Below, piece after piece: positions 4,884 to 13,890 of a stretch of 32,399 nucleotides of DNA. Within the stretch, counting starts at the first letter, position 1. Each line of letters begins with the position of its first letter. The translations under genes were made by a program, and so were the position numbers. The DNA is from Pseudomonadota bacterium. Its GTDB lineage: Bacteria > Pseudomonadota > Alphaproteobacteria > Puniceispirillales > UBA1172. Location: the NCBI GenBank assembly GCA_027593125.1, contig JAQCJL010000009.1, forward strand, positions 1 to 32,399. Reading direction: 5' to 3'. The notes beneath the pieces were generated by a model. It saw only the letters and a program-made list of their open reading frames with translations, was not told the origin of the DNA and ran no database searches.

Positions 4884-6299
4884 TTACCCCACCAGAAAAA
4901 TCGCGGCAAGGCCAAGGAATGTTAAAAATCCAATCACATCAGTAACTGTCGTGATAAAGACCGATGATGCCACCGCTGGATCAACCCCAATACGAGATAA
5001 GAATACCGGTATCGCCGCGCCACTAAGTGCCGCTGCTAACATATTAGCAATCATGGCAAATCCCATGACAAGCGCGATATGAAGATTTTGAAACCACAAG
5101 AACGCCACTAAACCAGCGACAACAGCAAAGATGATACCATTGATCAAACCCACCATCGCTTCACGCATGATAAAGCGGCTTACCATACCGTCGCCTAACT
5201 GCCGCATGGCTAGCGCCCGAACCGCAACTGTCACGGTCTGAGTTCCCGCATTGCCGCCCATTGAGGCAACAATTGGCATCAAAACCGCCAGTGCTACCAG
5301 ACGCTCAATCGTTTTGTCAAAGAGACCAATCACGATTGAGGCAATCACCGCAGTTAACAAATTAACTAGCAACCAAAGAAACCGTGTTTCTACCGTTGCC
5401 TTAATTGAGGCACGAAGATTACTTCCGCTAACACCGCCAAGTGCCATCAGATCTTCTTCAGCTTCTTCTTGAATAACATCCACAATATCATCAACCGTGA
5501 TGACGCCAACCAGCTTATTTTGCTGATCAACCACACTGGCAGAAACCAAACCATAGCGATGGAAAAGTAAGGCCACTTCTTCCTGATCCATGGTAACAGG
5601 GATCAAATGCGTTGAGGTCTCCATGATATCTGCGAGGCGCACAGGGCGTCCAGACGACAATAAACGCCCAAGTCTAACCTGCCCCTCAACCCGTCTTGCT
5701 GGGTCAATGACAATGATGGCATAGAAATCGTCAGGCAAATCCTCTTGGTCAAGAGAACGCATATAATCAACCGTTTGCCCCACCGTCCAATGCGATGGGC
5801 AAACCACAACCTCACGCTGCATCAATCGGCCAGCACAATTTTCAGGGTAAGACAGCGCCTCTTCTACGATCAACCTTTCCCCAACAGGCAGAGCCGCGAG
5901 AATACTGGCAAGCTCATCATCCTCAAGATCTTCAAGGATATCAATGGCGTCGTCACTTTCCATTTCAGGCAACGCCTGTGCCAATTCACTTACCCCATAA
6001 GTGGACACCACATCTTCGAGAATATCTTCAGGCAAATAGGTAAATACTGTCGCATCAATATGACGCCGCAACATGATCATAAACCGTTTACGTTGCGCAG
6101 AATTAAGGCGTTCAATCATATCTGCCTGATCCGCCGGATGAAGCGGCGAAACCAGGGATATTAATCGGTCACGATTGCCATCAGCGATCGCCGCAATAAT
6201 GGCCGCCTCAACCTTGGGGGTAAGGCCATAAAGATTGGTTAGATCTGGCATACCATGGCGCTGATATTCAATATTTTCATGATCGGGTTTTACCGCCAT
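4884..6299 (-). CDS. mgtE: Magnesium transporter MgtE
   Basis: MgtE is a homodimeric inner-membrane Mg2+ channel whose cytoplasmic domains close the pore when Mg2+ is plentiful. The 471-aa protein has the expected order. An acidic, helical MgtE N domain (about residues 35-135) contains HPADQADMIERL and the acidic run IDILEDLEDDE. Then comes a CBS-domain pair (about 140-265) and five C-terminal membrane segments (about 290-471). The first transmembrane block carries MGGNAGTQT, the family signature. An aspartate near residue 454 (TTVTDVIGF) fits the pore-lining Asp of the last helix. It shares the strand with the MttB-like gene upstream, with a 118-base gap, and DUF1489 follows after 2 bases. 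Confidence 0.95.
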   Translation of the reverse strand: MAVKPDHENIEYQRHGMPDLTNLYGLTPKVEAAIIAAIADGNRDRLISLVSPLHPADQADMIERLNSAQRKRFMIMLRRHIDATVFTYLPEDILEDVVSTYGVSELAQALPEMESDDAIDILEDLEDDELASILAALPVGERLIVEEALSYPENCAGRLMQREVVVCPSHWTVGQTVDYMRSLDQEDLPDDFYAIIVIDPARRVEGQVRLGRLLSSGRPVRLADIMETSTHLIPVTMDQEEVALLFHRYGLVSASVVDQQNKLVGVITVDDIVDVIQEEAEEDLMALGGVSGSNLRASIKATVETRFLWLLVNLLTAVIASIVIGLFDKTIERLVALAVLMPIVASMGGNAGTQTVTVAVRALAMRQLGDGMVSRFIMREAMVGLINGIIFAVVAGLVAFLWFQNLHIALVMGFAMIANMLAAALSGAAIPVFLSRIGVDPAVASSVFITTVTDVIGFLTFLGLAAIFLVG

Positions 6300-6337
6300 C
6301 GCGCCCTCACACCAGTTAGGAGTTCAGTAAAGATTAT

Positions 6338-6383
6338 TTATACCCACTCAGAGGGTAAAATCCAATTTGTGATGGTTATACCC
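6338..6383. repeat. Repeated TTATACCC and small hairpin in the mgtE leader
   Basis: The octamer TTATACCC occurs at 6338-6345 and again at 6376-6383. The first copy also forms a 5-bp hairpin, TACCC (6341-6345) with GGGTA (6353-6357). All of this lies in the 118-base gap between the MttB-like gene and mgtE, so on the - strand it would be in the mgtE leader or promoter region. The gap is too short to hold a canonical M-box riboswitch, and I do not see one. An operator role is only a guess. Confidence 0.35.
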
Positions 6384-6417
6384 TTTTCATGATAAAGATC
6401 AAATTCTCCATAAGCCC

Positions 6418-7974
6418 TTAGAAATCTGTTTCAACACCGCCATCTGTCTTGCGCCGCGCAACATAGCTAGCTAATTCCTCTTGGATAGCATCATCCATAG
6501 GTGGCGGTTGATATTCCGCTAAAATCGCTTTCATAATGGCGTTAGCCCGTTCTTCCGTTTTCAGGCCGCCAGTTTCTTCCCACGTTTCAAAATTACGCCA
6601 GTCTGATAAAAATGGGGCATAAAATGCATCCTTAAACCGGCGCTGAGTATGATCAGCACCAAAAAAATGACTGCCCGGACCAACCTCTTTGATGGCTTCA
6701 AAGGCAAGGGCATCATCACTCATATCCAGGGGCTGATTAAGATAAATCTGCTGCTGAAGCATTTCACAGTCCATGATAAGTTTTTCAAAACTGGCGCATA
6801 ATCCGCCCTCTAGCCAACCAGCCCCATGATAGACCATGTTGCAATGCCCAGAACTGACCGCTTGAAGCGAAGCCATGCTTTCCCATACCGCTTGCCCATC
6901 AGGATAGTTGGCAGCACACGCCACTGAGCCGCGCCAAGGCAAGCCATAACGCCGCGCCAATTGCCCTGATATCTGCATGGCTCGGTAGTATTCAGGTGTA
7001 CCAAAAGCAGGTGAACCAGATTTCATATCCACATTACTGGTAAATGCTCCAAAAACCACTGGTGTATGGGGGCGTACCTGTTGCATCAGCACCAAACCTG
7101 CCAAAAACTCAGCATTTTGTTGCACGATCGCCCCTGCTACGGTCGCTGGGGCCATTGCCCCTGAGAGGGTAAAGGGGGTTATGACAACGGCCTGACCTTT
7201 CTTGGCACAGCGCATTGCCCCATCAAGCATTGGCCAGTCGTGTTTCAGAGGTGAGGTGGAATTGATATTGGTGAACATTCGCGGCTTTGATGCAAACGCA
7301 CTTTCGGTAAGACCGCCAGCAATTCGCACCATTTCCATACCATCTTCGATACGCCCACTGCCAAGTGAATAAGCGTGTATCACTTTATCGGTTAGGGTCA
7401 GCATGTCATAAACACAATCTAGATGCCGTATAGATGCGTGAATGTCCACCGGCTCTACCGGATAGCCAGCAACGAAATGCAAACAATTAAAATACTGATT
7501 AAGCCGCAACAGGTTCTGAAAATCGGGTCTTGAACCTACTCGCCTGCCCCCATCAAGATCACTCACATTCGGGGCAGAAGCCACAGTAGAATAGAGCAAA
7601 TTTCTGCCGCCAACCGTTAGCGTCCTATCTAAATTTCGAGGAACAATATCAAACTCAGCTGGGGCAAGGGCTATCATTTTTTCAACCAGCCCACGATCCA
7701 TTTTGACATTCTTTGTCACATGATCAACATCACATCCTGCCTTTTCAAGATAATCCAATGCTTCATCATTTAAAAATAATATGCCGATTTCTTCTAATAC
7801 GCGCATAGAAGTATCGTGTATTCTGTTTAGGTCTTCTTCAGAAACGGGTTCAACGGGATCGTCAATATATTGCGGAATACGCCAATCCAGTTGTTCAATG
7901 GCTGCGCGAATAGGGTTTCCCTGCCCTCGACCTGCACGCGACCGGCGACCGGATCGGTTAGATGAGTCGTTCAT
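6418..7974 (-). CDS. Trimethylamine methyltransferase (MttB) family protein, non-pyrrolysine type
   Basis: MttB-family enzymes move a methyl group from a methylated amine to the cobalt of a small corrinoid protein. This 518-aa member has a basic N-terminus (SGRRSRAGRG), the family opening (LNRIHDTSMRVLEEIGILFL) and a long barrel domain with glycine-rich stretches such as MVYHGAGWLEGGL. Classical methanogen MttB reads through an in-frame amber codon as pyrrolysine. Here the frame is open throughout with no TAG, as in the glycine-betaine-type homologues, so trimethylamine itself is less likely to be the substrate. A quaternary amine is a family-based guess. I chose ATG 7974 because AAAGGTG sits just upstream; an ATG at 8037 in the same frame lacks this. 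No corrinoid protein gene is nearby, but a cobalamin operon starts divergently 65 bases beyond. Confidence 0.88.
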   Translation of the reverse strand: MNDSSNRSGRRSRAGRGQGNPIRAAIEQLDWRIPQYIDDPVEPVSEEDLNRIHDTSMRVLEEIGILFLNDEALDYLEKAGCDVDHVTKNVKMDRGLVEKMIALAPAEFDIVPRNLDRTLTVGGRNLLYSTVASAPNVSDLDGGRRVGSRPDFQNLLRLNQYFNCLHFVAGYPVEPVDIHASIRHLDCVYDMLTLTDKVIHAYSLGSGRIEDGMEMVRIAGGLTESAFASKPRMFTNINSTSPLKHDWPMLDGAMRCAKKGQAVVITPFTLSGAMAPATVAGAIVQQNAEFLAGLVLMQQVRPHTPVVFGAFTSNVDMKSGSPAFGTPEYYRAMQISGQLARRYGLPWRGSVACAANYPDGQAVWESMASLQAVSSGHCNMVYHGAGWLEGGLCASFEKLIMDCEMLQQQIYLNQPLDMSDDALAFEAIKEVGPGSHFFGADHTQRRFKDAFYAPFLSDWRNFETWEETGGLKTEERANAIMKAILAEYQPPPMDDAIQEELASYVARRKTDGGVETDF

Positions 7975-8102
7975 TTTCACACCTTTAACAGCGTTATTAA
8001 CAAGTTTATCGTCAACCCAAATCCTATGCCAATGCAACTGATTATTTGCATATTACAGCGAATCCTTTATCAAAATAAAAGCTATCCTGTTGGGAGACTC
8101 AT

Positions 8103-8654
8103 ATGGGGCGACAGAAAAATAAGGGGTTGCTGTTTTTTCTGGGAGGAGCCAGATCAGGGAAAACCGCGGCAGCAGAAGCAAAAGCTATTCACATTGCTGA
8201 AAATACCGGGCAAATCCCCTATTATCTTGCTACTGGACAAGCCTTTGATGATGGGATGAAAGATCGCATTGAGCGCCACAAAGCCCTGCGCGCGGATCGC
8301 TTTAACACCATTGAAGAGCCGCTTGATCTTGCCGCCTCTATTCAGGCTATTGATGCTGTCAACGCCGTTATTCTGATTGATAGCTTAGGCATTTGGTTAA
8401 CCAATATGATGATGGCGAAAAAGGACTGGCAAACGCCGTTAACAGAACTGCTCAACGTCATCGCGCATGGTGATAATCAAGTCATCCTAGTATCTGATGA
8501 TGTTAGTGGAGGGATTATTCCTGAAAATGCGATGGCAAGACAGTTTCGTGATGAGTTGGGATTGATAAATCAACAAGTTGCCGCCGCTGCCACTGAAGTT
8601 ATTTACGTTATTGCCGGTATCTCAACCCTGATTAAAGGTAAACAATCTTCATGA
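8103..8654 (+). CDS. cobU: Adenosylcobinamide kinase / guanylyltransferase (CobU/CobP)
   Basis: This enzyme phosphorylates adenosylcobinamide and then attaches GMP, giving AdoCbi-GDP for lower-ligand attachment. The 183-aa protein has the P-loop GGARSGKT (14-21). It has the RIERHKALR block with the histidine (H59) expected to carry the guanylyl group, the TIEEP motif (69-73) and a C-terminal ARQFRDELGLINQQVA block. One oddity is that the usual NEVGxGIVP motif reads SDDVSGGIIP (131-140), replacing the Asn, Glu and Gly. A GGGAG motif 5-10 bases before the ATG supports the start. The cobT start overlaps the stop by 4 bases. I see no cobalamin riboswitch in the 128 bases before the gene (back to the 7974 mttB start). 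Confidence 0.92.
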   Translation: MGRQKNKGLLFFLGGARSGKTAAAEAKAIHIAENTGQIPYYLATGQAFDDGMKDRIERHKALRADRFNTIEEPLDLAASIQAIDAVNAVILIDSLGIWLTNMMMAKKDWQTPLTELLNVIAHGDNQVILVSDDVSGGIIPENAMARQFRDELGLINQQVAAAATEVIYVIAGISTLIKGKQSS

Positions 8655-9679
8655 CCGTTCAATTCCAACATGCCGATGATGTTTTAGATATCCTTAAGAA
8701 TCTGCCCCTAGCCTGTGATACCAGCATGAAAGCGGCATCTGACCGGCAAGGGCAATTGACCAAGCCCCCCGGTTCTCTTGGCCGGTTAGAGGACTTAGCC
8801 ATTTGGCTAGCCGGTTGGCAAGGTCGCGAGAAACCTGAAATTCGCCATCCACGCTGTGTGATCTTTGCCGGCAATCACGGCATCACGGCAAAAGGTGTAT
8901 CGGCCTTTCCCCCAGAAGTCACCATGCAGATGGTAGCCAATTTCAAAGCAGGCGGCGCCGCTATTAATCAGCTTTGTCAAGCCGCAGGGGCGGAACTTGA
9001 TGTTCACGCCTTGGATTTGGATCGCCCAACAGCTGATTTTACCGAAGGCCCTGCTATGACTATTGAGGATACTCTTGCCGCCATGCAACGCGGGGCAGAC
9101 GCTATTCCTGATGATGCTGATCTTTTGATGCCTGGGGAAATGGGCATTGGTAACACAACCTCAGCAGCAGCTCTGGCCTTGGCGGTAATGGGCAATACCT
9201 CTGATCGCACAGCCATTTATTGGACAGGGCCAGGCACAGGCCTTGATCAGGCCGGGGTCACACAAAAAGCCGCGATGGTGCAAAAAGCCATTGACCGGAA
9301 CAAAGGCAAAACCCTTAACCCGGTAGAATTATTATCCGAATATGGCGGCAGAGAAGTCGCCGCCATTGCAGGGTTAGTTCTGGCGGCACGAATGCGGCGC
9401 ATCCCAGTTCTGCTAGATGGATATATTTCAACTGCCGCCTGCCTGCCGCTTTGGCATGGGAACGCATCAGCCCTCGCCCATTGCCAGATTAGCCATTGTT
9501 CAAAAGAACCTGGGCATCAGCATATCCTGGCAGGTCTGGGATTGCAGGCAATTCTTGATCTTGGGATGCGGCTTGGTGAGGGCAGCGGTGCGGCAACTGC
9601 CTTGCCGATTGTCAAAGCCGCGCTGGCAGCGCATAATGGTATGGCTACTTTCGCTGAGGCAGGGGTATCCGGTGGATAA
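8651..9679 (+). CDS. cobT: Nicotinate-nucleotide:dimethylbenzimidazole phosphoribosyltransferase
   Basis: CobT makes alpha-ribazole phosphate from nicotinate mononucleotide and 5,6-dimethylbenzimidazole, activating the lower ligand of B12. The 342-aa length is typical. Diagnostic motifs are LTKPPGSLGRLE (37-48), AGNHGIT (73-79), PGEMGIGNTTSAAAL (161-175) and EPGHQHILAGLGLQAILDLG (286-305), then MRLGEGSGAA. E163 and E310 align with the two family catalytic/structural glutamates as I recall them. The gene begins within the cobU stop (ATGA). Its last bases, including AGGGG at 9661-9665, appear to supply the ribosome binding site for cobS. Confidence 0.96.
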   Translation: MTVQFQHADDVLDILKNLPLACDTSMKAASDRQGQLTKPPGSLGRLEDLAIWLAGWQGREKPEIRHPRCVIFAGNHGITAKGVSAFPPEVTMQMVANFKAGGAAINQLCQAAGAELDVHALDLDRPTADFTEGPAMTIEDTLAAMQRGADAIPDDADLLMPGEMGIGNTTSAAALALAVMGNTSDRTAIYWTGPGTGLDQAGVTQKAAMVQKAIDRNKGKTLNPVELLSEYGGREVAAIAGLVLAARMRRIPVLLDGYISTAACLPLWHGNASALAHCQISHCSKEPGHQHILAGLGLQAILDLGMRLGEGSGAATALPIVKAALAAHNGMATFAEAGVSGG

Positions 9680-10454
9680 ACCTAGCATGGATTATATCAA
9701 GCATATGATGGTCTGGCGCTTAGATTGCCAGATGGCAGCTATGATATTAACACGCGTGCCAATGCATATTGATTATCCCAATGATCGCAAAATTGCGATG
9801 AGTTACTGGGCGTTTCCTCTGGTTGGTATTTTAGTCGCTGGAATTTCTGCAATCCCCGGGGTTATTTTGCTGTTAGCAGGGGTTCCCCCCCTTGCCGTGG
9901 GGGCAGTTATGCTAGCGGTTGCAGCCCTTATCACAGGTGGGATGCACGAAGATGGTCTGGCGGATATAGCGGATAGTTTGGGTGGTCATGATCAGGCTAG
10001 CCGGTTGCAAATTATGCGCGATAGCCGTATTGGCGCGTTCGGGGTGATTGCGCTGGTGCTTATTCTGGTGATACAGCTTGCTTGCCTTGCCGAATTAGCA
10101 ACGCAAGGGGTCAATGTACTGATCGGGGCATGGCTGGCAGCGGCAGTGTTGTCACGTGCAATGATGGCATTGCAGGCATGGTCATACCCACCCCCTGACC
10201 AGACGGGCTTTGCCCATTCTGTTGGAAGCCCTGATCAAAACACTATGCTGATTGCCTTGGGGTTAGGGTTGGGGCTAGCTATTTTACTTTCCGGCTCATT
10301 AATGGTGTTTCTTGCCGCTGGTTTTGCTGTTCTTGCAACTTTTCTGATCGGTGCTGCATTTAATTGGCACCTTGGCGGCATAAACGGTGATGGGCTTGGT
10401 GCAACCCAAATGCTGTCTTCAGCAGTTATATTTATGGTTATGGCGATATCATGA
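9672..10454 (+). CDS. cobS: Adenosylcobinamide-GDP ribazoletransferase (cobalamin synthase)
   Basis: CobS is a polytopic inner-membrane enzyme that joins AdoCbi-GDP to alpha-ribazole (or its phosphate), the final assembly step of cobalamin. The protein is about 260 aa from GTG 9672. It shows ILTRVPMHI near the N-terminus and the diagnostic MHEDGLADIADSLGG with IMRDSRIGAFGV in the first third, followed by several hydrophobic helices. The conserved acidic residues in HEDGLAD bind divalent metal in the family. I chose GTG 9672 because AGGGG ends 6 bases before it; ATG 9687 is an alternative. The frame is open much further upstream, but that part is antisense-free shadow inside cobT. The stop overlaps the next gene as ATGA. 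Confidence 0.93.
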   Translation: MDKPSMDYIKHMMVWRLDCQMAAMILTRVPMHIDYPNDRKIAMSYWAFPLVGILVAGISAIPGVILLLAGVPPLAVGAVMLAVAALITGGMHEDGLADIADSLGGHDQASRLQIMRDSRIGAFGVIALVLILVIQLACLAELATQGVNVLIGAWLAAAVLSRAMMALQAWSYPPPDQTGFAHSVGSPDQNTMLIALGLGLGLAILLSGSLMVFLAAGFAVLATFLIGAAFNWHLGGINGDGLGATQMLSSAVIFMVMAIS

Positions 10455-11107
10455 CACCTGCTGATGCAGAAAAAGGCATCATAACACTGGGACGCTTGAT
10501 TCTAATTCGCCATGCCAGAACAGATTATGACCGCGCCCTTATTCCTCCTGAAGACCCCCCACTTGATCCCTTAGCCCAGCATGATTATGTGGCAATGGTA
10601 TCAGAGTTGCCTAAACATTGGCATTGGGTCGTATCACCTCTTCGTCGATGCCTTGCCACAGCTGAACACTTGATTTCCCATGGCGCAGAATGCGCTGAAC
10701 ACACCACCGATAACCGGTTAATAGAACAATCTTATGGTCGCTGGCATGGGCAAGATATTGCCACTGTTTGGGATAAGGAATTAGCCGAAGGACCAAAGCA
10801 TAACTGGCATTTTTTGCACCCAGATCATACCCCCCCAGAAGGTGAATCTTTTCATCAGCTAACTACGCGTGTGACCCCTCTTTTGCATGAGTTAAGCACA
10901 TCAGGGCAAAATTATATTGTTATCACCCACGGCATGGTGATAAGGGCCATGGTTGGCGCGGCGCTAGGATTGACACCAGATCGCGCTATGGCATTTGAAA
11001 TTGCCCCTATGTCGATGACGGGATTAACGCGCATGAATAAAGGGGGCAGTCTTGATCAAGCCAATGGCGGTGATTGGCAGGTCAATTTCCTAAACCGAGG
11101 GTTTTGA
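10451..11107 (+). CDS. cobC: Histidine phosphatase family protein, CobC-like (probable alpha-ribazole phosphatase)
   Basis: This 218-aa branch-1 histidine phosphatase has RHA at 20-22 (usually RHG), SPLRRCLATA (62-71, with the phosphate-binding Arg), an acid in LIEQSYGRWHG (90-100) and ITHGM (158-162) with the second histidine. In cobalamin assembly CobC dephosphorylates alpha-ribazole phosphate or the cobalamin phosphate. That role is inferred from its position as the fourth gene of a 4-base-overlapping cobU-cobT-cobS operon and from the EQSYGRWHG block, which is CobC-like. The RHG to RHA change leaves the nucleophilic histidine in place. The gene ends 20 bases from the convergent hpf stop, with no visible terminator between. 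Confidence 0.8.
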   Translation: MTPADAEKGIITLGRLILIRHARTDYDRALIPPEDPPLDPLAQHDYVAMVSELPKHWHWVVSPLRRCLATAEHLISHGAECAEHTTDNRLIEQSYGRWHGQDIATVWDKELAEGPKHNWHFLHPDHTPPEGESFHQLTTRVTPLLHELSTSGQNYIVITHGMVIRAMVGAALGLTPDRAMAFEIAPMSMTGLTRMNKGGSLDQANGGDWQVNFLNRGF

Positions 11108-11127
11108 TTAAATTTTCTGATACTACC

Positions 11128-11730
11128 CTATCGGTTGCCACGTGGGTCAACCCATCCAATACTGCCATCATTTCGGCGGTAAATCATATTCAGCCCCATA
11201 TGGGATCGGTTGCGAAACATCATCGCTGGCTGGCCTGATATATCAAACCGCATGATCGCTTCTTCAAGAGACATAATATTAATTGGATAATCCATTTCCG
11301 CCAGAATCGCTGGAGCACCCTCACCACTAATGGCCTCATCAACACCGCCATCTTGGATATCTTCCTCATCCTTGAGGTCAGAAAGGGACAGCACCGTCAT
11401 GGTCGCATCCATCTGATCCGTTTCCTGCTGATCGTGACGATGATTGCGAAGCCGGCGTTTATAACGGCGTAAGCGTTTTTCAATATGATGAGCGGCAACA
11501 TCAAGCGCTTGATGGGCATCCCCTGCCTTACCACTAGCCTCCATATCCATGCCTGTAGACAGATTGACATGAACCTTAACGGCAAAACCGGCCGTATCTT
11601 TTTCTAAGGTGACTGAACCTGACACGGCACGAGGAAAATATTTTTCAATAGCTGCCTCTAATTGCACTTGGGCGTGTTCTTGAAACGCTGGACCCGTATC
11701 CATATTTTTACCTGAAACAGTGATTTGCAT
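11128..11730 (-). CDS. hpf: Ribosome hibernation promoting factor, long form
   Basis: HPF binds the 30S A/P-site region when growth slows, and the long form pairs ribosomes into 100S dimers. The N-terminal domain (about residues 1-100) starts MQITVSGKNMDTG and ends in the basic RLRRYKRRLRNH. A linker of about 35 acidic residues follows. The C-terminal dimerisation domain (about 145-200) has MSLEEAIMRFDISGQPAMMF and ends IGWVDPRGNR. Two ATGs lie in AAGGAGATGAAAATG. The first (11736) abuts the Shine-Dalgarno, so I chose the second (11730), which has 6-base spacing and gives 200 aa. It is the last gene of a - strand group, but its own promoter in the 112-base upstream gap is likely. Confidence 0.94.
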   Translation of the reverse strand: MQITVSGKNMDTGPAFQEHAQVQLEAAIEKYFPRAVSGSVTLEKDTAGFAVKVHVNLSTGMDMEASGKAGDAHQALDVAAHHIEKRLRRYKRRLRNHRHDQQETDQMDATMTVLSLSDLKDEEDIQDGGVDEAISGEGAPAILAEMDYPINIMSLEEAIMRFDISGQPAMMFRNRSHMGLNMIYRRNDGSIGWVDPRGNR

Positions 11731-11780
11731 TTTCATCTCCTTTGTTCAGACACATTGATAAGATCGATAAACGTTTTTTT

Positions 11781-11801
11781 ATGATCAGCCAAAACGATCA
11801 T
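11781..11801. repeat. Inverted repeat ATGATC-N9-GATCAT upstream of hpf
   Basis: Two perfect 6-base arms, at 11781-11786 and 11796-11801, lie about 50 bases upstream of the hpf start in the 112-base intergenic gap. The arrangement could be an operator for hpf or a weak hairpin. An A-run follows on the - strand instead of a U-run, so it does not look like a terminator for the upstream oxygenase gene. Confidence 0.35.
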
Positions 11802-11848
11802 CAATACAAGTTTAGAGTAAATGCAATTTGTGCTTGAAATACGGCAAA

Positions 11849-12472
11849 TCAGGCAAATTCTTGCCGTAACCCTATAGATAACCTTCCGCCATCCACCTGA
11901 TCAACAAAATGCAATGGGCGTCCGTGATCCCCATCACGATTGGCAAAACCTGGCGCCGACAGCAACACCAACTGCCCCGGATGATCATTTAGGGCAACAG
12001 CACCATTGCCATTACGATCATCACATAAACAAAGTCGCGATTTCCCTGCCAAAGTAATGATAATCACGATCTGTCGATACCGTAGCCCATCACGGTGAAC
12101 CCCGATCCCTTTAGACCCTTTGGGATAGCGTTGAATAGCGCGATCATTAAGATAAAGTGGTTCAGAAAACACAGGGGTTTCCAGCCTGCCATTCGCCGTG
12201 TTCAGCCCATCTTCTAGCATCTGGCAGATGACCTCCAGATGGCCTTCTCTTGGGGCTGGAAAACAGATATCAAAGTCCTGATGAACAACGACCCCTTTAT
12301 GCGATACGCGGTCAGTCGCACGGCGCATTGGTAAAGCCTCAGCCATATCCGTTAACACTGCGATTTCATCAGCGGTAAAAAAAGGCACAGAAACACCAAG
12401 GCACTGATCCGCGGCTAGCGCAATCAGTGCCTCTTTGAGTTGATCTATGCGGTCATCGGTCAAGGCAAACAT
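11849..12472 (-). CDS. Putative 2-oxoglutarate/Fe(II)-dependent oxygenase fold protein
   Basis: The 207-aa protein has a C-terminal half consistent with the double-stranded beta-helix of Fe(II)/2OG oxygenases. HRD at about residues 125-127 (GVHRDGLRYRQ) gives a possible H-x-D pair. A later PLHFVDQVDGGRLSIGLRQ gives a possible distal His and the 2OG-binding Arg about ten residues on. The N-terminal half is not diagnostic. The substrate is unknown, and the call rests on the spacing of these residues. It follows the aminotransferase by 26 bases on the same strand and has no strong Shine-Dalgarno, so it is probably co-transcribed. It may be a modification or catabolic enzyme; I cannot tell which. 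Confidence 0.55.
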   Translation of the reverse strand: MFALTDDRIDQLKEALIALAADQCLGVSVPFFTADEIAVLTDMAEALPMRRATDRVSHKGVVVHQDFDICFPAPREGHLEVICQMLEDGLNTANGRLETPVFSEPLYLNDRAIQRYPKGSKGIGVHRDGLRYRQIVIIITLAGKSRLCLCDDRNGNGAVALNDHPGQLVLLSAPGFANRDGDHGRPLHFVDQVDGGRLSIGLRQEFA

Positions 12473-12498
12473 GAGTGTTTGACCACCATAACAAAGAT

Positions 12499-13890
12499 TT
12501 AATCGAGGGTTTTGACCAGTTTATCAACCTCAGGAAGAACGCTTTCCACACGATCAAACATCATATTAATTTCGTCTTCGCTGATAATTAGTGGCGGGCA
12601 AAACGCGATGCCATCAAGAGGAAGTGCCCTAATAATCACCCCAGCATCCTGAACCATTTTCATGACCCGTGCGGCCAATTTATGCTTTGGATCAAGCTTA
12701 ATCCGGCTATTGGGTTCTTTCACAAACTCAATCGCACCAATAAGCCCAATACCGCGCGCATCACCAACGCTGTCATATTTCCCAAGCCCCTTGATCCGCT
12801 CTTGGAATAACGGCGCGATTTTGCGAACATAATTGATAATGTCACGCTCTTCCATCAATTCAAGCGTACGCAGAGCAACTGCCGCAGGAACAGGATGGGC
12901 AGTATAAGTATAACCATGGCCGAACTGGCCTAGCTTTTCTGCTTGAACTGCCATGCCGTCAGCAACTTTATTGCTTACCAATACAGCTGAAATTGGCAGA
13001 TAAGCAGATGATAAAGCCTTAGCGCAGGTGAGGATATCTGGCTTGAGACCATAAGTTTGTGATCCCCACATATTGCCCGTACGACCAAAGCCACAGATCA
13101 CTTCATCAGCGATAAACAGAATATCGTGTTTCTTTAAAATTGGTTGAAGAGCCTCAAAATACCCTTTCGGGGGAAGTATCACCCCGCCAGCACCCATTAA
13201 CGGTTCAGCAATAAAGGCACCGATAGTATCTGCGCCTTCTTCAGCTATCATGTCTTCTAGGTCTTGCATGCAACGCTTAACGAAATCATCCACGCTTTCG
13301 CCATCGTGAGCATCTTGGAAATAATGTGGCGAGGAGGTGTGTTTGGCAAAATCAAGTGGTAGGCTGAACCCTTGCTGAACATAGGGGAGCGCTGTAAGGC
13401 TTGACGCCGCCAGTGTTACACCATGATAGCCACGCTTGCGGCTAATCACTTTACGCTTTTCAGGCTTACCAATCGCGGCATGATAATACCATACCATTTT
13501 GATGGCAGTATCGTTTGCTTCTGATCCAGAATTACAGAAAAAAACCTTATCCAGACCATCAGGGGCAGCTTTGATCAGTTTTTCAGCCAGATTAATCGCC
13601 GGATTATGCGTCTTCGCCGTAAAGCTGTGGTAAAAGGGCAATTCCTGCATCTGTTTGGTGGCGGCTTTAACCAATTCGGTTTCGCTAAACCCAAAAGATG
13701 CACACCAGAGACCTGCTAGACCTTCGATATAATCCTTACCTTCACTGTCATAAACAAAGACGCCTTTGCCCTTATTGATGATCATTGGCCCCTGTTCCGC
13801 CAGCATTGCCGGGTTAGTGTAAGGGTGCATATGATATGCAATATCTTTGGCTTCTTGTGAGTTTGGTGAAAACATTTCAGGTTTATTCAT
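12499..13890 (-). CDS. Class III (omega) aminotransferase, PLP-dependent
   Basis: Class III aminotransferases move the amino group of an omega-amino acid or amine to pyruvate or another keto acid. The 463-aa protein has the typical order: LAGLWCASFGFSE (58-70), FCNSGSEANDTAIK (118-131) for phosphate binding, RGYHGVT (153-159), AFIAEPLMGAGGV (225-237), FIADEVICGFGRTG (259-272) with D262 for the pyridine nitrogen, and the Schiff-base lysine K291 in TCAKALSSAYLPI. The overall pattern matches the pyruvate-dependent omega-transaminase group (beta-alanine, putrescine, taurine and similar amines), and the exact substrate is not predictable. GGAG lies 7 bases before the ATG. It sits between an SDR and a putative oxygenase, all on the - strand. 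Confidence 0.92.
   Translation of the reverse strand: MNKPEMFSPNSQEAKDIAYHMHPYTNPAMLAEQGPMIINKGKGVFVYDSEGKDYIEGLAGLWCASFGFSETELVKAATKQMQELPFYHSFTAKTHNPAINLAEKLIKAAPDGLDKVFFCNSGSEANDTAIKMVWYYHAAIGKPEKRKVISRKRGYHGVTLAASSLTALPYVQQGFSLPLDFAKHTSSPHYFQDAHDGESVDDFVKRCMQDLEDMIAEEGADTIGAFIAEPLMGAGGVILPPKGYFEALQPILKKHDILFIADEVICGFGRTGNMWGSQTYGLKPDILTCAKALSSAYLPISAVLVSNKVADGMAVQAEKLGQFGHGYTYTAHPVPAAVALRTLELMEERDIINYVRKIAPLFQERIKGLGKYDSVGDARGIGLIGAIEFVKEPNSRIKLDPKHKLAARVMKMVQDAGVIIRALPLDGIAFCPPLIISEDEINMMFDRVESVLPEVDKLVKTLD

Follow-up and report, generated by a model that had tools for sequence, protein, structure and literature searches.

Several bacterial systems that pass methyl groups from quaternary amines to a corrinoid protein have been described. 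It is reported that Ruegeria pomeroyi uses MtgBCDE, an aerobic glycine-betaine demethylase/split methionine synthase that works with MetF2 and RamA and was published in 2025; the same paper counts up to seven PF06253 open reading frames (ORFs) per genome and finds mtgC in SAR116 (PMC12478193). Eubacterium limosum, with MtpB, MtcB, and MtyB (for proline betaine, carnitine, and gamma-butyrobetaine), also has several MttB-type enzymes on one corrinoid protein: three are described as sharing MtqC, one MtqA, and one activase, RamQ (PMC8604678). The window, the whole stretch of 32,399 nucleotides analysed here, is contig 83 of a 1.99-Mb assembly (175 contigs, 96.7% complete) from a bacterium that we place in the SAR116 group. 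It has an mttB-type gene transcribed away from the cobalamin (B12) genes cobU, cobT, cobS, and cobC. The encoded methyltransferase is likely to demethylate a betaine other than glycine betaine through a single MtgC-like corrinoid protein encoded on another contig (C111), with cobUTSC completing the corrinoid. The features of the locus are as follows.

6418 to 7974, minus strand: quaternary-amine:corrinoid methyltransferase of the MttB superfamily (PF06253), non-pyrrolysine; identified by PF06253, PDB relatives, predicted fold, and tree
7975 to 8102, no strand: divergent intergenic region that separates the preferred start codons by 128 bp; identified from the sequence, no Rfam match
8103 to 8654, plus strand: cobU, adenosylcobinamide kinase/guanylyltransferase; PF02283 at 170 bits, NF004469 at 161.6 bits against a cut-off of 161
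8651 to 9679, plus strand: cobT, nicotinate-nucleotide:dimethylbenzimidazole (DMB) phosphoribosyltransferase; PF02277 at 377 bits, TIGR03160 above cut-off
9660 to 10454, plus strand: cobS, adenosylcobinamide-GDP ribazoletransferase; PF02654 at 150 bits, TIGR00317 above cut-off
10451 to 11107, plus strand: cobC-like histidine phosphatase, probable alpha-ribazole phosphatase; PF00300 at 107 bits, TIGR03162 at 83 bits against a cut-off of 163
11128 to 11736, minus strand: hpf, ribosome hibernation factor, outside the pathway but within the conserved block; PF02482/PF16321

Profile matches and ORFs agree in genes, strands, and coordinates with the original prediction, in which a non-pyrrolysine MttB homologue faces cobU-cobT-cobS-cobC across a gap of 65 to 128 bp. 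The ORF at 6418-8037 on the minus strand matches PF06253 at 660 bits (cut-off 25) over profile positions 3-499 of 500. Its sequence relatives in the PDB are 4yyc (350 bits), the MtgB entries 9yce/2qne (315), and the MttB entry 7xcl (140), and a Foldseek search with an AlphaFold2 model (mean pLDDT 80) matches the same chains (4yyc: E 3.9e-41, TM 0.84/0.90). Full-length profile and predicted fold place the protein in the MttB superfamily (PF06253/COG5598). Superfamily and fold are shared with the pyrrolysine MttB of Methanosarcina barkeri (7XCL), but identity to it is 26%, and the window gene has neither of the two marks of that enzyme: its reading frame runs through without an internal amber codon, with a gap at the pyrrolysine column, and the score against the pyrrolysine MttB model TIGR02369 is 292 bits, below the cut-off of 525. 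The width of the gap depends on the start codon. TTG 8037 leaves 65 bp to the cobU ATG at 8103 and ATG 7974 leaves 128 bp. The latter start is preferred, though not proven: an AAGGTG-like ribosome-binding site precedes it, and relatives L025 and L026 have their nearest ATG at this very residue. The nearest ATG of other relatives lies some residues earlier or later.

It had been predicted that no corrinoid protein or activase stands beside mttB and that a partner must lie elsewhere. This is true for the window, and both are found on contig C111. A profile search of the genome gives six full-length PF06253 matches and one fragment, a single B12-binding_2 (PF02607) match above cut-off, which is a corrinoid protein with both PF02607 and PF02310 above the Pfam cut-offs, and a single RACo/RamA-type activase with RACo domains. 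Since the genome encodes both proteins, in one cluster, the worry about a missing partner, which would have weakened the link between mttB and the cob genes, is settled. The cluster reads as follows (coordinates of locus L012; all genes on the same strand).

7535 to 8236: MtgC-like corrinoid protein (PF02607, PF02310)
8702 to 9604: MTHFR-like (MetF2-like) protein (domain match)
9729 to 10634: Pterin_bind (MtgD-like) protein (domain match)
10674 to 12767: RACo/RamA-like activase (RACo domains)

The same gene set is found in seven stretches of genus g10, in two of which (L159 and L164) the contig ends ahead of the RACo gene. In the window's genome, two open frames (343 and 309 amino acids) match PF02574 (S-methyl_trans) and are candidates for MtgE. 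Full-length MetH was not seen in the assembly (96.7% complete), where nothing but the corrinoid protein matches PF02607 above cut-off. Like that of R. pomeroyi, therefore, this genome has one set of MtgC-, MtgD-, MetF2-, and RamA-like proteins and several PF06253 paralogues, and with its stand-alone MtgE candidates and no full MetH its gene content appears to be that of an aerobic MtgBCDE system. By analogy with E. limosum, the one hub on C111 presumably serves all six MttB-type enzymes.

Based on this gene set, a pathway can be proposed. The window MttB would demethylate a carboxylated quaternary amine and load the methyl group onto cob(I)alamin bound to the single MtgC-like protein, from which the MtgD-like pterin protein would transfer it to tetrahydrofolate. 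The MetF2-like protein would oxidise the methyl group carried on tetrahydrofolate, and the RACo/RamA-like protein would re-reduce corrinoid that has become inactivated. The N,N-dimethyl product would probably be oxidised by a dimethylglycine-dehydrogenase-like enzyme. The products of cobUTSC would attach the lower ligand to the corrinoid required by MtgC, and hence by the window MttB.

Two side observations concern the partner cluster. In one g10 stretch (L158), a DUF1638 protein (6101-6835) and a small PF13769 protein (6835-7152) are encoded after the corrinoid gene and ahead of metF2. The window's genome leaves only 466 bp from the corrinoid gene to the MTHFR-like gene. DUF1638 is called a cobalamin-reactivation protein in PMC12478193. 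Recoding at in-frame stops, which were flagged in some MtgC relatives, was considered and dropped for L155, the one readable case of two: there the stop is the codon just before the start.

The substrate class is suggested by the tree and by the binding pocket. In a tree of 27 rows, including 2QNE, 4YYC, 7XCL (whose long branch was flagged by the tool), the genome's own paralogues, and plasmid relatives, the window protein falls in a separate clade of 15 rows with support 100/100. It does not cluster with 2QNE and its close orthologues. Just outside the clade are a pair formed by the paralogue on contig C40 and a protein from S. meliloti pSymA, and a Rhodobacteraceae plasmid protein; 4YYC, 2QNE, and the paralogues on C6 and C114 are further off. 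C6 pairs with 4YYC (94/82) in a C6/4YYC/C114 group apart from the window clade, and 2QNE stands outside both groups. The original prediction proposed a tree with MtgB, MtcB, and MtpB, of which the 27 rows cover MtgB, through 2QNE. C6 is 63% identical to 4YYC and scores 747 bits to it and 435 bits to 2QNE, the MtgB of Desulfitobacterium hafniense (DhMtgB), while the window protein is 38% identical to 4YYC and scores 350 and 315 bits. Note that 4YYC, an S. meliloti structure and the nearest solved relative, is titled a trimethylamine methyltransferase in the PDB, and a role with glycine betaine is not established here.

For MtgB, a glycine betaine pocket of Y94, N199, R309, H345, and F353 has been proposed (PMC6855144). 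In its predicted model the window protein resembles DhMtgB (2QNE/9YCE) in fold (TM 0.83-0.85 by query length) and, like it, has N199, R309, and H345, the equivalents of which are kept in all 15 rows of the window clade. Unlike DhMtgB, to which it is 37% identical, it keeps neither Tyr94 nor Phe353. At the Tyr94 position all rows of the clade have Ala or Ser (Ala in the window protein), whereas C6, C114, and 4YYC keep Tyr. At the F353 position the window protein has Gly, but so do 4YYC and C6. The separate clade and the replaced Tyr94 thus set the window protein apart from MtgB and 4YYC alike and make glycine betaine less likely as the substrate. The gene is probably not a glycine-betaine MtgB, and its enzyme probably uses some other carboxylated quaternary amine. 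It could be argued, on the other hand, that the gene encodes a second, MtgB2-like glycine betaine methyltransferase, redundant with the C6 paralogue. The conserved N199/R309/H345 would fit, as would the dimethylglycine-dehydrogenase-like enzyme encoded downstream in relatives, and two PF06253 proteins of R. pomeroyi, SPO2108 and SPO2134, are reported to increase with N-osmolytes, glycine betaine among them (PMC12478193). Given the clade and its Ala/Ser94, such redundancy is unlikely.

Two of the genome's own paralogues (L018 12538-14058 and L019 8173-9735) have no counterparts of R309 and H345 and branch separately from the MtgB-like paralogues; they perhaps use non-carboxylated substrates. 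Plasmid-borne relatives were also considered as guides to the substrate (three of 141 matching records were examined), and none was retained. Upstream of the relative in Phaeobacter sp. G2 (61%) stands a HAD hydrolase, and a glycine-cleavage-T-type gene follows 2.3 kb downstream; neither points to a substrate. The S. meliloti pSymA relative (45%) groups with the C40 paralogue. The M382 relative, with an FAD oxidoreductase and an ABC transporter in its vicinity, lies outside the window clade.

Another line of evidence comes from a DAO/GCV_T protein that scores 594 bits to dimethylglycine dehydrogenase. In the window's genome it is encoded on contig C2 (8144-10585), and in 13 of the 40 genomes counted as having an mttB orthologue its gene stands directly downstream of mttB. 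With orthologues defined at 73% identity or more and at most eight first-look candidates scored per genome, the dehydrogenase is found in 27 of 45 genomes that have an mttB orthologue (partial in five of the 45) vs 2 of 76 without one, counts that are not corrected for kinship. The pair also exists outside SAR116-type loci (L083, L098, L120, L125, L127, and L134 among others), in Afifella, Pontivivens, and Monaibacterium. In the Afifella-type loci L098, L100, L120, and L134, a solute-binding-protein cluster lies on the other side of mttB, and the two proteins tested belong to solute-binding protein family 5.

Several observations weigh against demethylation of a non-glycine betaine through the C111 hub. 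The corrinoid protein is under every NCBIfam cut-off reported (MtgC_2: 211 vs 370 bits). The dehydrogenase, at the same identity threshold, is missing from 17 of the 40 genomes with full-type mttB, including all nine of genus g10; it is therefore not obligatory, and another enzyme may act where it is missing. Its paralogues on C2, C6, and one of those on C69 resemble dimethylglycine dehydrogenase about equally (594, 627, and 591 bits), so the name fixes no substrate, and the assignment of a substrate from the dehydrogenase was abandoned for these near-equal scores. Tyr94 is also lost in the three rows just outside the clade (the genome's own C40 and two plasmid proteins), so that its loss is not a mark of the window clade alone. 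Finally, the binding of the carboxylate by N199, R309, and H345 rests on docking reported in PMC6855144.

On the other side of the divergent region, cobU, cobT, cobS, and cobC overlap head to tail on the plus strand and match CobU, DBI_PRT, CobS, and His_Phos_1. The start of cobS is taken as 9660; a longer ORF from 9417 is also listed. CobU, CobT, and CobS are above curated cut-offs in operon order, and the cobU at 8103-8654 is the sole CobU match in the assembly. CobC fits the alpha-ribazole phosphatase model TIGR03162 weakly (83 vs 163 bits), and its position in the operon supports the assignment. The set has the gene content of CobUTSC nucleotide-loop assembly, but BluB, the DMB synthase, is not alongside. 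"Complete lower-ligand operon", as the locus had been called, is therefore too strong. No BluB match above cut-off exists in the assembly (96.7% complete); the best is 35.9 vs 150 bits (C13:10374-10889). With CobT present yet BluB matched only weakly, the cell may import its lower ligand, or the BluB gene may sit in sequence that the assembly lacks. Six TP_methylase matches above cut-off in the genome are consistent with corrin-ring synthesis. In the wider order, no CobU (PF02283) above cut-off is seen in G003, G011, G015, G022, and the genomes of family f4 except G044, some of which are 99-100% complete. These contrast with the statement, in a SAR116 phylogenomic study, that B12 synthesis genes are carried by all genera of both subclades (PMC8547437).

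The neighbourhood of mttB and cobU is conserved. Among 121 genomes of the order, mttB orthologues (58-100% identity) were counted in 40, one of which (G017) aligned only over residues 19-428 and two (G014 and G109) had one stop flagged in the match. Within these 40, cobU is divergent within 1 kb of mttB in 22, on another contig in four, and undetected in 14, so divergent adjacency holds in 22 of the 26 genomes that contain mttB as well as cobU. Partial mttB orthologues occur in five more genomes, outside this count, and one of them (G028) also has the pair. Conversely, 15 of the 121 genomes have cobU without an mttB orthologue. The failure to detect cobU in G003, G011, G015, and G022 is despite 99-100% completeness; other absences may reflect fragmented assemblies. 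In G017 (C170, locus L039) the mttB orthologue is split between query residues 425 and 456, perhaps through misassembly or because the gene is decaying. A cobU match is present in 19 of the 80 named loci: in 18 as the divergent SAR116-type pair, and in one (L105) at a distance of 4.6 kb. Neighbours in these 18 loci were counted by hand, and several of the loci come from genomes already in the 121-genome set and are not independent. No report of an mttB-cobU link in SAR116 appears among the titles and abstract openings of the literature matches listed, which does not establish its absence from print.

The conservation, however, extends beyond the pair. In the named loci with the pair, hpf adjoins cobC in all 14 visible cases and the next gene (u11849) adjoins hpf in 12 of 13. 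The conserved block is thus u11849-hpf-cobCSTU-mttB, with mttB at its edge and genes without a B12 role inside it. This weakens the case for selection on the mttB-cobU pair, and inherited gene order may explain the adjacency. A housekeeping B12 operon may simply have stayed beside an unrelated catabolic gene since the SAR116 ancestor under slow rearrangement, some lineages having since lost or relocated cobUTS. In six named loci that have no cobU, hpf still stands close to mttB, separated from it by a cobC-like gene in four (L075, L113, L131, and L133) but not in L066 and L122, and the cobU-matching loci are nearly all of the SAR116 type; both facts suit such a history. Less easily accommodated are the facts that both genes serve one cofactor and that, as reported, the mtgBCDE demethylase genes of S. 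meliloti are co-located with a cobalamin operon (PMC12478193). Inheritance of this kind is about evenly balanced between right and wrong.

The adjacency could instead reflect shared control, in which a bidirectional promoter region or a regulator would match B12 completion to demethylation demand. The divergent adjacency itself would suit it, while the downstream neighbour of mttB varies (mgtE in 5 and the dehydrogenase in 3 of 17 named loci with data), as would the S. meliloti arrangement and the reported rise of cobalamin-synthesis proteins on methylated substrates (PMC12478193). The equally conserved hpf and u11849 positions and the many genomes with mttB but no detected cobU argue the other way. 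A search of the window gave no cobalamin riboswitch, and the intergenic region 7975-8102 has no Rfam match. A riboswitch as the shared control was discarded, as the sole one found in the genome, at C114:3460, lies ahead of a CbtA cobalt-transporter gene. Candidate promoter-like consensus sites exist at 7985-8012 (plus) and 8032-8003 (minus); in 7800-8300 three such sites were found vs a mean of 0.6 in shuffles.

In genus g10, a pair of conserved motifs, approximately CGACGGTAWCAGY and TCRTTCWAAAAATGACAT, recurs in the mttB-cobU intergenic regions (L165-L171) with a constant spacing of 26 bp. Motif models were built from the intergenic regions themselves, the shorter from nine sequences and the longer from six of eight (two too short were dropped), and were scanned at a 12-bit threshold against seven MtgC-cluster stretches, two short MtgC loci, and seven mttB-cobU stretches. 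Both motifs are present in all seven mttB-cobU stretches, as follows by construction, and always 26 bp apart; the longer one scores 17.5-34.1 of 34.1 bits. The longer motif was not found at the MtgC loci of either kind, and the shorter one gives a single weak match there (L160, 15.2 of 23.3 bits), L169 having a second weak match. In a whole-genome search allowing one mismatch, the longer motif occurs once in each of six genomes, only at mttB-cobU, and a reversed-pattern control gives one match, in one of the six. A role as a regulon element was rejected, since the longer motif is confined to this locus. The pair looks like a local promoter or operator. Its fixed spacing and, for the longer motif, its genomic uniqueness speak for co-regulation of mttB and cobUTSC, but the motifs are expected in the regions they were built from, and the MtgC cluster has neither at a similar score. 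No counterpart is apparent by eye in the window's own genus, where the intergenic region aligns only patchily. Shared control is possible; demand-matched co-regulation is, on balance, doubtful. A broader proposal, that in SAR116 a common divergent promoter region couples the last B12 steps to demethylation of one particular marine betaine, with osmolyte use and cobalamin supply adjusted jointly, and that the Ala/Ser94 clade represents a new substrate class among aerobic MttB-type demethylases, is quite improbable.

Seen in ordinary terms, the window gene is a further MttB-type paralogue of the published aerobic system; it belongs to a defined clade, lies beside B12 nucleotide-loop genes in a SAR116-conserved block, and probably acts on a betaine. 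Clues to the substrate are offered by the pairing of mttB with the dimethylglycine-dehydrogenase-like gene and by the adjacent peptide-type ABC importer in four Afifella-type loci. Identification of the substrate would add another osmolyte to those demethylated through B12 by SAR116-type and other marine Alphaproteobacteria, and would account for part of the cobalamin demand of these bacteria.

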